Shown in pieces: positions 7,432 to 9,562 of a DNA stretch of 64,000 nt. Location of the stretch: contig NZ_JOGB01000021.1 of NCBI RefSeq assembly GCF_000719335.1, positions 148,315 through 212,314 on the forward strand, written 5' to 3'. The position numbers were made by a program, and so were the translations under genes. The first letter of the stretch is position 1. Every line of letters begins with the position of its first letter. Under the pieces are notes generated by a model. That model made no database searches. It was not told where the DNA came from and saw only the letters and a program-made list of their open reading frames with translations. The stretch is from Streptomyces sp. NRRL S-87 (lineage in GTDB: Bacteria; Actinomycetota; Actinomycetes; Streptomycetales; Streptomycetaceae).

Positions 7432-7587
7432 GGCTTTTACCGTGCGCCCTCGCGGGAGTCAAGTCCCGTATTGCAGTGGCGTGACGGTCCGCGGCCGGGA
7501 CGGTTTATTTGAAGCACGGCCCCACCGGGGAACCCCGGAAACGAAAAGGGCCGGCACATTGCCCGACAGTTTGAATGGAGAATTGCC
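7432..7587 (+). repeat. Upstream half of a direct duplication (copy 1), putative promoter region
   Basis: This region upstream of the broken small secreted gene matches 9013-9202 upstream of the intact copy. Shared blocks in order are ggcttttacc, gtcaagtcccgtatt, gtggcgtgacg, ggtttatttgaag, caccgggga and atggagaattgcc. Since both the regulatory region and the gene are duplicated, the duplication unit was the whole transcription unit. I cannot assign a sigma factor to the conserved boxes. Confidence 0.7.
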
Positions 7588-7864
7588 ATGTTCGCTCGTT
7601 TTTCGACCCGTCGCCTCGTTCTCGCCGGTGCTTCCGTGGCCCTGGTCGGTGGTGGTGTCGCCCTCCCGGCGCACCGGCAACAACAGCTGCAAGGGCAAGT
7701 GCACGATCAGCACGGGCAACGCGAAGGGCGGCGACGCCAGCGCCGACGCGGTCAACACGGGTGACGCGACCTCCGTGAGCGGCGACGCCACGGGTGCCGG
7801 CGGCACGGTCAAGAACATCAAGAAGGACATCAAGAAGGAGGTCCTCAAGAAGATCGGCAAGTGA
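7588..7864 (+). pseudogene. Frameshifted copy of small CxGxC secreted protein gene
   Basis: From the ATG at 7588 the first 28 codons are identical to the intact copy at 9203 (signal peptide start MFARFSTRRLVLAGASVALV). An 11-bp stretch present in the intact copy (ggcgcggccaa, just at the signal-peptidase region) is missing after cccggcg. The coding span is 277 bp here against 288 bp there. Translation therefore leaves frame and stops near 7763. Downstream of the deletion the DNA is nearly identical to the intact copy and still encodes, out of frame, the CKGKC module and lysine-rich tail up to the original stop. The near-identity points to a recent duplication or ongoing gene conversion. A sequencing error is unlikely to remove 11 bases but can be excluded only by reads. 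Confidence 0.85.
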
Positions 7865-7904
7865 GGGCCGGGGGCCCGCCCGCTCCCCCGGGCGCCCCGA
7901 CACA

Positions 7905-7940
7905 CGGACGCCGGAGAGGCCGCAGCCCCTCCGGCGTCCG
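7905..7940. terminator. Hairpin terminator between convergent genes
   Basis: A 12-bp perfect stem (cggacgccggag paired with ctccggcgtccg) with a 12-nt loop lies just after the broken copy (+) and before the stop of the 263-aa relative (-). It can terminate both. It has no U tract, as is usual in Streptomyces. Confidence 0.65.
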
Positions 7941-7960
7941 CCTCTGCCGTGCTCCGTCCG

Positions 7961-8752
7961 TCAGCCGTTGCCGCCCACCGCGGTCGCGTCGCCGCTCACG
8001 GCCGTCGAGTCGCCGGCGTTCGCCGCGTCGGCGCTGGCGTTTCCGCTGGTGGCGTTGCCCGTGGTGATCGTGCACCGGCCGATGCAGGTGCCCACGCCGC
8101 CCGAGGTGGCGGCGCCGGAGGCGGCCTCGCCGCCGACGGTCGTGTTGGCGGCGTTGGCGTCGCCGCTCACCGCGGTGGCGTCGCCGCCCCGGCTGTTGTT
8201 CTGGTCGCCGCCGCGGCCCTCGTCGTCACCGCCGCGCCGGGCGCGCTGGCCGATCGGGGCCTCGGCCGTCCGGTGGCTGCCGCCGCTGACCACGTCGGCG
8301 GTGGCGACGGTGTTGACGCTGCCGAGGCACAGACCGTTGCACACGTTGAAGGCGCCGTCGCCGGCGGCGGTGTTGGTGCTGGTGCCGCACAGGCCCGCGC
8401 ACTCGTTGTACGCGCCGTTCCCGACCGTGGTGCTGACGCTGTCGTCGCACAGGCCCCGGCAGACGCCCGACGCCCCCTCGCCCACGGCGGTGTTCGTGCT
8501 GCCGTGGCACAGGCCCGTGCAGCCGGCCGAGAGACCGTCGCCCGCGGCGGTGTTGTCGGAGTCGTGGCACAGCCCGGCGCAGCCGCCGGCGCCGTCGACG
8601 ACCAGGACGCCGCCGTCGTGGGTGAAGGTCACGGCGTAGTGCGGGACCGCCGGTGCGGCCGCCGCGGTCGCCGGGAACGCGACCCCGCCGCCGACCAGGG
8701 CCACGGAAGCCGCCGCGAGCACGAAACGACGGGTCCAGGAACGCTCGTTCAT
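7961..8752 (-). CDS. Secreted protein with five 20-residue CxGLC repeats and a C-terminal CxGxC module
   Basis: 263 aa from the ATG at 8750-8752, preceded by ggagaattccg. The signal peptide (~1-34) carries TRRFVLAAASVALVGGG, nearly the same as in the neighbouring 95-aa protein. Residues 58-157 are five tandem repeats of exactly 20 residues with consensus C-x-G-L-C-x-x-S-x-N-T-x-x-G-x-G followed by four variable residues. A charged Gly/Arg/Asp linker follows, then a module starting CIGRCTITTGNATSGN (Cys223) that is homologous to the small protein's CKGKCTISTGNAKGGD. Repeats of the type GDATAVSGDANA flank it. All Cys occur as C-x-G-x-C pairs, suggesting disulfide-stapled turns of a beta-solenoid or surface fibre. 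This is inference; I do not recognise the family. It is divergent from the intact small gene and convergent with the broken one. Confidence 0.85.
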   Translation of the reverse strand: MNERSWTRRFVLAAASVALVGGGVAFPATAAAAPAVPHYAVTFTHDGGVLVVDGAGGCAGLCHDSDNTAAGDGLSAGCTGLCHGSTNTAVGEGASGVCRGLCDDSVSTTVGNGAYNECAGLCGTSTNTAAGDGAFNVCNGLCLGSVNTVATADVVSGGSHRTAEAPIGQRARRGGDDEGRGGDQNNSRGGDATAVSGDANAANTTVGGEAASGAATSGGVGTCIGRCTITTGNATSGNASADAANAGDSTAVSGDATAVGGNG

Positions 8753-9012
8753 CGGAATTCTCCGGGATTCTCGTGCGAGGTCTTCGCCCGCGGCCAAGCG
8801 GACGGGCGCCGCGGGTTCCGGCCGGAAACGTCCCATGCCGTGCGGACGCCGGGGCCATGCGAGGGCGACGTTATCGCGCGGATCACCCGGTCGACAGAAC
8901 CCCGCCGGGCGCGGCGTGTTCCGCCCGCCCGGGCCTTCTCCGCCCGGCCCCCCCGCCGGCCCGCCGGGCCCTTCGGGAGCTTCCGCAAGGGATTCCCGCC
9001 ACGGTGCCCGAA

Positions 9013-9202
9013 GGCTTTTACCAAGATCCGCGAGACGGCGTCAAGTCCCGTATTCAAGTGGCGTGACGCGGGGGCCCGGACCGGGTTTATTTGAAGTACG
9101 CCCTCACCGGGGAAACCCGGAAAGCAGAAGGCGGAGAAACCATCCAAAAGAATCCCTCGGGAAACATTCCCGAGACCCTTTCCTTCCGAATGGAGAATTG
9201 CC
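9013..9202 (+). repeat. Upstream half of the direct duplication (copy 2), putative promoter region
   Basis: Counterpart of 7432-7587, with the same ordered boxes (ggctttta, gtcaagtcccgtatt, gtggcgtgacg, ggtttatttgaag, caccggggaa) and an extra ~30-bp insertion before the start codon. It sits in the 450-bp divergent gap between 8752 and 9203. The rest of that gap shows no gene. Confidence 0.65.
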
Positions 9203-9490
9203 ATGTTCGCTCGTTTTTCGACCCGTCGCCTCGTTCTCGCCGGTGCTTCCGTGGCCCTGGTCGGTGGTGGTGTCGCCCTCCCGGCGGGCGCGGCCAACAC
9301 GGGCAACAACAGCTGCAAGGGCAAGTGCACGATCAGCACGGGCAACGCGAAGGGCGGCGACGCCAGCGCCGACGCGGTCAACACCGGTGACGCGACCTCC
9401 GTGAGCGGCGACGCCACGGGTGCCGGCGGCACGGTCAAGAACATCAAGAAGGACATCAAGAAGGAGGTCCTCAAGAAGATCGGGAAGTGA
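9203..9490 (+). CDS. Small secreted protein with CxGxC module and cationic tail (intact copy)
   Basis: 95 aa starting MFARFSTRRLVLAGASVALV. The signal peptide probably ends around ALPAGA-A (residue ~31). The mature part is about 65 residues: N-T-G-N-N-S, then CKGKC (Cys38, Cys42), the Gly/Asn/Asp-rich segment TISTGNAKGGDASADAVNTG, GDATSVSGDATGAGG, and a lysine-rich amphipathic end KKDIKKEVLKKIGK. The first part is shared with the C-terminal module of the 263-aa neighbour; the cationic tail is not. It does not look like a chaplin (no chaplin-domain GNxxG pattern with hydrophobic strands) or a classic rodlin. Function unknown; a cell-surface or antimicrobial role is possible but unsupported. 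The start is fixed by identity with the duplicated copy. Confidence 0.85.
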   Translation: MFARFSTRRLVLAGASVALVGGGVALPAGAANTGNNSCKGKCTISTGNAKGGDASADAVNTGDATSVSGDATGAGGTVKNIKKDIKKEVLKKIGK

Positions 9491-9520
9491 CGCCGGCACG
9501 CACCCGCCGCACCGCCGACC

Positions 9521-9562
9521 GCGCAACCGCCGGAGGGGCCGACCGCCCTCCGGCGGTTGCGC
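9521..9562 (+). terminator. Strong hairpin terminator
   Basis: A perfect 17-bp stem (gcgcaaccgccggaggg with its complement) and an 8-nt loop, 30 bp after the stop of the small secreted gene. Confidence 0.8.

Follow-up and report, generated by a model that had tools for sequence, protein, structure and literature searches.

Chaplins, rodlins and SapB are the best-described surface proteins of Streptomyces, the chaplins being small secreted proteins that occur in several copies per genome. The rodlins RdlA and RdlB, of 131 and 133 amino acids (aa), are described in PMC5314377 as paired secreted Streptomyces proteins that are disordered in solution, one of which forms amyloid; the curlin repeats of CsgA and CsgB measure 23 ± 5 aa, typically number five in Enterobacteria and contain a QX10Q kernel (PMC10192328). 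Here we analyze a locus at positions 7432–9562 of a 64,000-nucleotide stretch of DNA (the window) from Streptomyces sp. NRRL S-87, whose genome is an 8.15-Mb draft in 255 contigs. The locus consists of two intact genes and one broken gene for small and large secreted-type proteins with a C-x-G-x-C (CxGxC) module. We read it as a lineage-specific pair of secreted structural proteins, a solenoid and a cationic partner, that may act at the Streptomyces cell surface or in its matrix, and we put the probability of this reading, jointly with the mechanism proposed below, at roughly 0.42. The features of the locus are as follows:

7458..7486, + strand: the same inverted repeat as at 9040..9068, upstream of the broken small copy
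7588..7864, + strand: second small-gene copy, frameshifted at the signal-peptide/mature junction (alignment to the 9203 copy, frame analysis)
7961..8752, − strand: large CxGxC gene, 263 aa (open reading frame; relatives in four other Streptomyces)
8282..8581, − strand: five-repeat region, residues 58–157, solenoid predicted over 58–150 (repeat positions, AlphaFold2)
9040..9068, + strand: inverted repeat of 29 bp, GTCAAGTCCCGTATTCAAGTGGCGTGACG, between the divergently oriented large gene and intact small gene
9083..9094, + strand: −10-like element GGGTTTATTTGA at a fixed distance 3' of the palindrome (sequence; fixed-spacing enrichment over 63 sites)
9203..9490, + strand: small CxGxC gene, intact, 95 aa (open reading frame, 12 database proteins including two from the window, 25-member alignment)

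The locus resembles each of these systems in part. Like the chaplins (PF03777), its small proteins are secreted and present in several copies per genome; chaplin membership was rejected because none of 25 small and 5 large members matches PF03777, the same genome giving 12 chaplin matches as a positive control, none of them on contig C21. With the rodlins it shares the pairing of secreted Streptomyces proteins (PMC5314377). It differs from them in that no shared Pfam or NCBIfam family was found, in scans that included no separate comparison with a rodlin sequence or profile, and in its tandem CxGxC repeats, which the passages of that paper on RdlA/RdlB do not mention. The likeness to curli CsgA/CsgB lies in secretion, in tandem repeats of a two-strand beta-solenoid (here a predicted fold, with five repeats of 20 aa) and in a pair of major and minor subunits (PMC10192328); the CsgA fibril was the top second-look match when the model of the large protein was compared with known structures. 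Unlike in curlins, every repeat here contains Cys, Gln is conserved at no repeat position and turns up in just 2 of the 25 repeats, both times at position 6, and we obtained neither a Pfam curlin match nor a sequence match to solved CsgA. Curlin membership was rejected on the absent Pfam match and the absent Gln kernel; the large protein may still work like a curli-type solenoid despite failing the curlin sequence test. If our reading is true, the Streptomyces surface would gain a further component, a secreted solenoid pair of a separate kind that has a promoter class of its own.

Predicted fold of the large protein and its putative small partners

The large protein carries the same type of signal peptide as the small proteins, followed by five repeats, a charged linker and a C-terminal CIGRC module; this CxGxC module is common to the small proteins, whose Lys tail the large protein lacks. 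The motif C-x-G-L-C-x-x-S-x-[NS]-T begins at residues 58, 78, 98, 118 and 138, a spacing of exactly 20, and a sixth CxGxC lies at residue 223. All 12 Cys of the mature protein sit in CxGxC pairs, and the six occurrences compare with a mean of 0.12 and a maximum of 3 in 20,000 shuffles of the mature sequence. An earlier note on this DNA, made from its letters, had described five exact 20-residue repeats; the exactness holds for their length and not for their sequence, since pairs of repeats are identical at 7–13 of 20 residues. The large proteins of the four other Streptomyces have exactly five repeats each.

AlphaFold2 models the five repeats as a regular beta-solenoid, with a predicted local distance difference test (pLDDT) score of 61–76 in ten-residue blocks across residues 61–150, and disorder elsewhere. 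Neither a sequence search against solved structures nor structure comparison with a viral structure library (best E 0.016) gave anything useful. In the model, the two Cys of each repeat are four residues apart on the same strand, a placement that on general grounds would point to stacking between rungs and not to a bond within a rung. The strongest result against the structural pair comes from the same predictions: the shared CxGxC module is modeled as disordered, at very low confidence, in both proteins examined, the large one and a small one from S. katrae, and thus finds no support as a folded unit. The beta-solenoid that the earlier note had suggested for the module is accordingly predicted for the 20-residue repeats of the large protein and not for the module itself.

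Predicted disorder is what one would expect if these were Gly/Asn/Asp-rich secreted protectants that retain water or shield a drying surface, the solenoid being no more than a minor scaffold. The Pfam dehydrin model gave a match in this direction in 1 of 25 small members (E 0.0049); alone among the 25 and weak, it is probably driven by composition. A generic protectant would have no need of invariant CxGxC cysteines or of strongly conserved 20-residue repeats, and we consider this explanation quite unlikely.

The confinement of all mature Cys of the large protein to CxGxC pairs could also speak for a metal or redox function, in which the pairs would act extracellularly as ligands of a soft metal or as oxygen sensors. 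In its favor, His occupies position 6 in 8 of 25 repeats; elsewhere this position holds Gly, Asp, Arg, Gln and other residues, and disulfide formation is common where bacterial secreted proteins contain Cys in pairs. A metal or redox role is a long shot.

The TxT beta-solenoid antifreeze proteins have short Cys-containing repeats with Thr-x-Thr rows, the repeats of the beetle protein being 12 residues long. Ours share the short Cys-containing repeats and the Thr rows: 15 of the 25 repeats have Thr at both position 9 and position 11, residues that the model puts on a single strand, which invites the idea that the second strand of each rung forms a T-x-T row as in insect antifreeze proteins, and several ice-binding proteins were among the weak structural matches. 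However, the repeats measure 20 residues and not 12, no sequence relation was seen, and weak matches of this kind are typical of any beta-solenoid. The row is also interrupted, the fifth rung having Val or no Thr at position 9 in all five species and the first rung lacking TxT in three of them. An ice-binding-like solenoid is highly improbable.

The small protein encoded at 9203–9490 consists of a signal peptide with TRR, a Gly/Asn/Asp-rich CKGKC module and a Lys-rich C-terminal tail. It is a shortened member, with about 45 residues fewer than the other 24 aligned members. The tail, which the earlier note had called cationic and amphipathic, is indeed cationic, with a charge of +6 over the final 18 residues; its helical hydrophobic moment is unremarkable, being reached in 20% of shuffles, and the tail is not markedly amphipathic.

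In the structural pair that we favor, the large protein would form a five-rung beta-solenoid with two strands per rung and stacked Cys, Gly, Ser, Asn and Thr positions, ending in a flexible CxGxC module, and the small proteins, in several copies, would present the same module together with the Lys-rich tail. Near-identical signal peptides would export both proteins. Contact between small and large proteins would be mediated by the common module, oxidation of the cysteines outside the cell would lock the assembly, and the cationic tails would hold it to the anionic envelope. A surface structure is our best guess for the product of such a pair.

Relatives, copies and neighbors of the locus

A protein search with the small protein returned 12 proteins, including two from the window, and the nine with a named source are Streptomyces entries called 'hypothetical protein'. 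A genome scan found eight loci in four species: five in S. katrae and the others in S. spinoverrucosus, Streptomyces sp. AP-93 and sp. BR123. The 12-row profile matched 22 of 295 sampled Streptomyces genomes, with full family members in only three (NRRL S-87, G153 and G257); in the remaining genomes the match is mostly confined to the signal-peptide part. Of 392 Streptomyces genomes sampled for the repeat region, 4 contain it, as a single copy in each. One chance match, in a fifth genome (G207), was set aside: it runs antisense to an open reading frame that we take to be leuC. Among 394 genomes of the class, the module was found in one, that of NRRL S-87.

The large protein found a single relative in the protein search, covering 21% of the query, and its repeat region alone found none. 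We obtained no family match in Pfam, NCBIfam, PHROGs or PADLOC; within these collections, the claim that the proteins belong to no described family stood. A phage or defense family was rejected on the PHROGs and PADLOC scans. A literature search on CxGxC and S. katrae secreted proteins, covering open-license papers, found nothing relevant by title. We regard the proteins as a lineage-restricted secreted family whose solenoid is plausibly new and which would belong to a wider, previously unrecognized candidate regulon.

The layout of the locus is conserved. In all five species (NRRL S-87, S. katrae, S. spinoverrucosus, AP-93 and BR123) the large gene lies on the opposite strand to the small genes, divergent from one of them, with the palindrome between the two, and in four of the five an additional small gene converges on the large gene; in the window, this is the broken copy. 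The ratio of nonsynonymous to synonymous substitution rates (dN/dS), a plain Nei-Gojobori estimate at high G+C, is below 1 in 10 of 10 pairs of the five large genes (0.45–0.87) and in 45 of 45 pairs of ten small genes (0.22–0.64), which says only that the proteins are conserved, under purifying selection.

Aligned with the 9203 copy, the broken copy at 7588 is identical at 274 of 277 bases, apart from a single 11-base gap at the signal-peptide/mature junction, where the 7588 copy is shorter. The missing bases place the signal peptide and the module in different frames, so that the copy is no working gene as assembled; because the assembly is a draft, the frameshift may be an assembly error. 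The earlier note had counted three genes with a shared signal peptide type and CxGxC; this applies to the two intact genes and not to the third. Its proposal of a strain-specific duplication under selection did not hold up either, since other species too have a single large gene with several small genes about it in the opposite orientation, the upstream copy is broken, and dN/dS reflects conservation only. Further small-gene pieces lie at the ends of contigs C99, C107, C84 and C55 of the same genome, and may be parts of the same copies; C99 carries a truncated copy and C64 a remnant. We take these pieces to mean that small genes have been duplicated and have decayed repeatedly, and that the assembly breaks in such repeats.

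On its left, the locus is flanked by a gene at 2240–7276 (− strand) for one protein that fuses ketoacyl synthase, acyltransferase and class I/II aminotransferase domains, a relative of which adjoins an S. katrae locus, and on its right by a RecQ helicase gene. A methyltransferase and a glyoxalase also adjoin the S. katrae locus. DUF6777 (PF20568) genes stand beside the BR123 and S. spinoverrucosus loci and another S. katrae small gene (L015 4221–5858, L051 4751–6589, L016 7820–9172); the one in L016 has the palindrome upstream. Their products, with a Pro-rich N-terminus, are unrelated to the CxGxC proteins, and a search of open-license papers found none on DUF6777.

Two linear plasmids bear a lone small gene, and the large gene has no matching record in the same plasmid collection. 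Lone plasmid copies and several small-gene copies per genome would fit secreted antagonism, with the small Lys-tailed proteins as antimicrobial or signaling peptides and the large protein as a carrier or immunity-like partner. The cationic C-terminal tail, modeled with low confidence as a helix over residues 127–139, agrees with this, as does a palindrome before the gene for a pyridoxal-phosphate (PLP)-dependent enzyme in an apparent small biosynthetic cluster. Yet the tail in the window is not markedly amphipathic, the large protein has the same module without a tail, and scans of 8 and 4 neighboring proteins recognized no immunity protein or dedicated peptide-modifying enzyme, the methyltransferase and glyoxalase beside the S. 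katrae locus notwithstanding. Antagonism appears unlikely.

A palindrome shared with other small secreted proteins

Upstream of the small genes, a palindrome of the form GTCAAGYCMCG-N7-GTGGCRTGACG ends about 95–150 nt before the start and is followed by GGGTTTATTTGAAG or a close variant. All aligned small-gene copies for which upstream sequence exists have it, one S. katrae copy with small departures; the sole exception is the second AP-93 copy, located close behind the first. The earlier note did not remark on this common promoter palindrome. A divergent small-gene relative on contig C36 of the same genome has the palindrome without the full downstream element, and the large genes have a separate conserved upstream stretch of their own.

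In its general form, of 28–29 bp, GTCAAGNCNCG-N7-GKGNCRTGAC, and with a −10-like element at fixed spacing, the palindrome marks a range of small secreted proteins that are unrelated to one another, in some Streptomyces only (loci L058–L123). The NRRL S-87 genome has 12 sites at up to 3 mismatches, compared with 1 for the reversed pattern. Small secreted proteins follow several of them, namely the divergent relative (C36), a CITAPCGPP protein (C42) and an Asn-Thr-Pro (NTP)-repeat protein (C9); a site on C20 precedes a protein resembling DUF6777, and sites on C1 and C10 precede genes without a clear link. In a genus sample, 10 of 101 genomes had the palindrome (30 sites vs 2 for the control). 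In six genomes, selected because they have the family or many palindrome sites, the pattern matched 61 times, with a maximum of 17 in one genome, and its reversed control not once (0); the 61 include one self-symmetric place counted on both strands, and loci were fetched for 30 of them, so that the site statistics below cover part of these matches. Outside Streptomyces, 110 genomes of other genera had 1 site vs 7 for the reversed control. The counts within and outside the genus indicate that the palindrome belongs to a part of Streptomyces and not to the whole genus. A literature search on its letters found nothing relevant by title among open-license papers, from which absence from print does not follow.

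The −10-like element was not part of the search pattern at the 63 sites, where GG stands at +17/18 in 54 (background 13%), TA at +21/22 in 38 (1.3%) and T at +24 in 50 (13%); the enrichment is inflated because the 63 sites include small-gene copies related by descent. Conservation of the arms is partly imposed by the search pattern, and the site set used for it includes loci fetched through proteins, which the 63-site set excludes.

The association with secreted proteins was examined independently, starting from genes that resemble the family in their signal peptides. Among 24 such genes, 14 had the palindrome (at most 1 mismatch) 64–163 nt upstream, compared with 0 of 24 for the reversed pattern. 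The 24 are the non-family, mostly signal-peptide-only profile matches with a fetched locus, of 29 in total, and their orientation was chosen by a hydrophobicity rule. Of the five matches outside this set, three (NRRL S-87 C36 and C9, G039 C2) have a nearby same-strand palindrome by coordinates and two (NRRL S-87 C68, G257 C7) do not. Starting from the 63 sites, which come from loci fetched by DNA pattern, a secreted-type open reading frame lay downstream at 31; the antisense side gave 8, and of 1260 positions drawn at random 113 had one, as judged by a crude, home-made signal-peptide rule. Many of the remaining sites precede genes recognizable by eye, such as a PLP-dependent enzyme with its divergent partner, or DUF6777-like proteins. 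No Pfam family was assigned to six further proteins encoded behind the palindrome.

Arg-Arg is invariant in the signal peptides of the 25 small and 5 large aligned members. In several other proteins behind the palindrome its place is taken by QR or RK/KI; on these sequences, export by the general secretory (Sec) pathway is as likely as by twin-arginine translocation (Tat).

A dimeric activator bound to the palindrome over the −35 region would switch on the small genes and the wider set of small secreted proteins; we place it there because TGAC closes the right arm and is followed, 21–22 nt further on, by the TA of the −10-like element. One may go further and combine the two parts: in a part of Streptomyces, a hitherto undescribed secretome regulon in which one palindrome-binding activator and a recognizable signal-peptide type serve uncharacterized small secreted proteins that are unrelated and vary from genome to genome (CxGxC, CxxAPC, NTP-repeat and Lys/Thr-rich), and in the lineage of the window a new cysteine-lined, five-rung solenoid pair that forms a surface structure locked by oxidation and different from those of chaplins and rodlins. 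As a whole, this combination is possible but doubtful. The candidate regulon is a wider and more testable finding than the repeat. The palindrome offers a direct handle that groups dozens of uncharacterized secreted proteins into one candidate regulon, so that the identification of one activator would open the function of all of them to a common test.

Several other genes behind the palindrome deserve mention. In L133 (6808–10941) and L134 (6743–10625) it occurs once per direction in the space separating two divergent genes, one for a PLP-dependent enzyme and one for a large protein with an acyl-carrier-like stretch, as recognized by eye; the pair looks like the start of a small biosynthetic cluster. 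Inspection by eye of the open reading frames of at least 90 aa in these two neighborhoods of 16–17 kb recognized no regulator. Genes resembling DUF6777 by eye have the palindrome upstream in the NRRL S-87 genome (L065) and elsewhere (L089, L090). Secreted-type proteins made mostly of NTP tandem repeats are found in L069 and L096, and others with a CxxAPC motif (C-x4-C, for example WQCITAPCGPP) in L066, L077, L079, L113 and L115, with two copies in L077 and L079. L103 encodes a secreted-type protein with Asp/Asn-rich repeats, in which FVGVYERIEDVDGDAT occurs twice.
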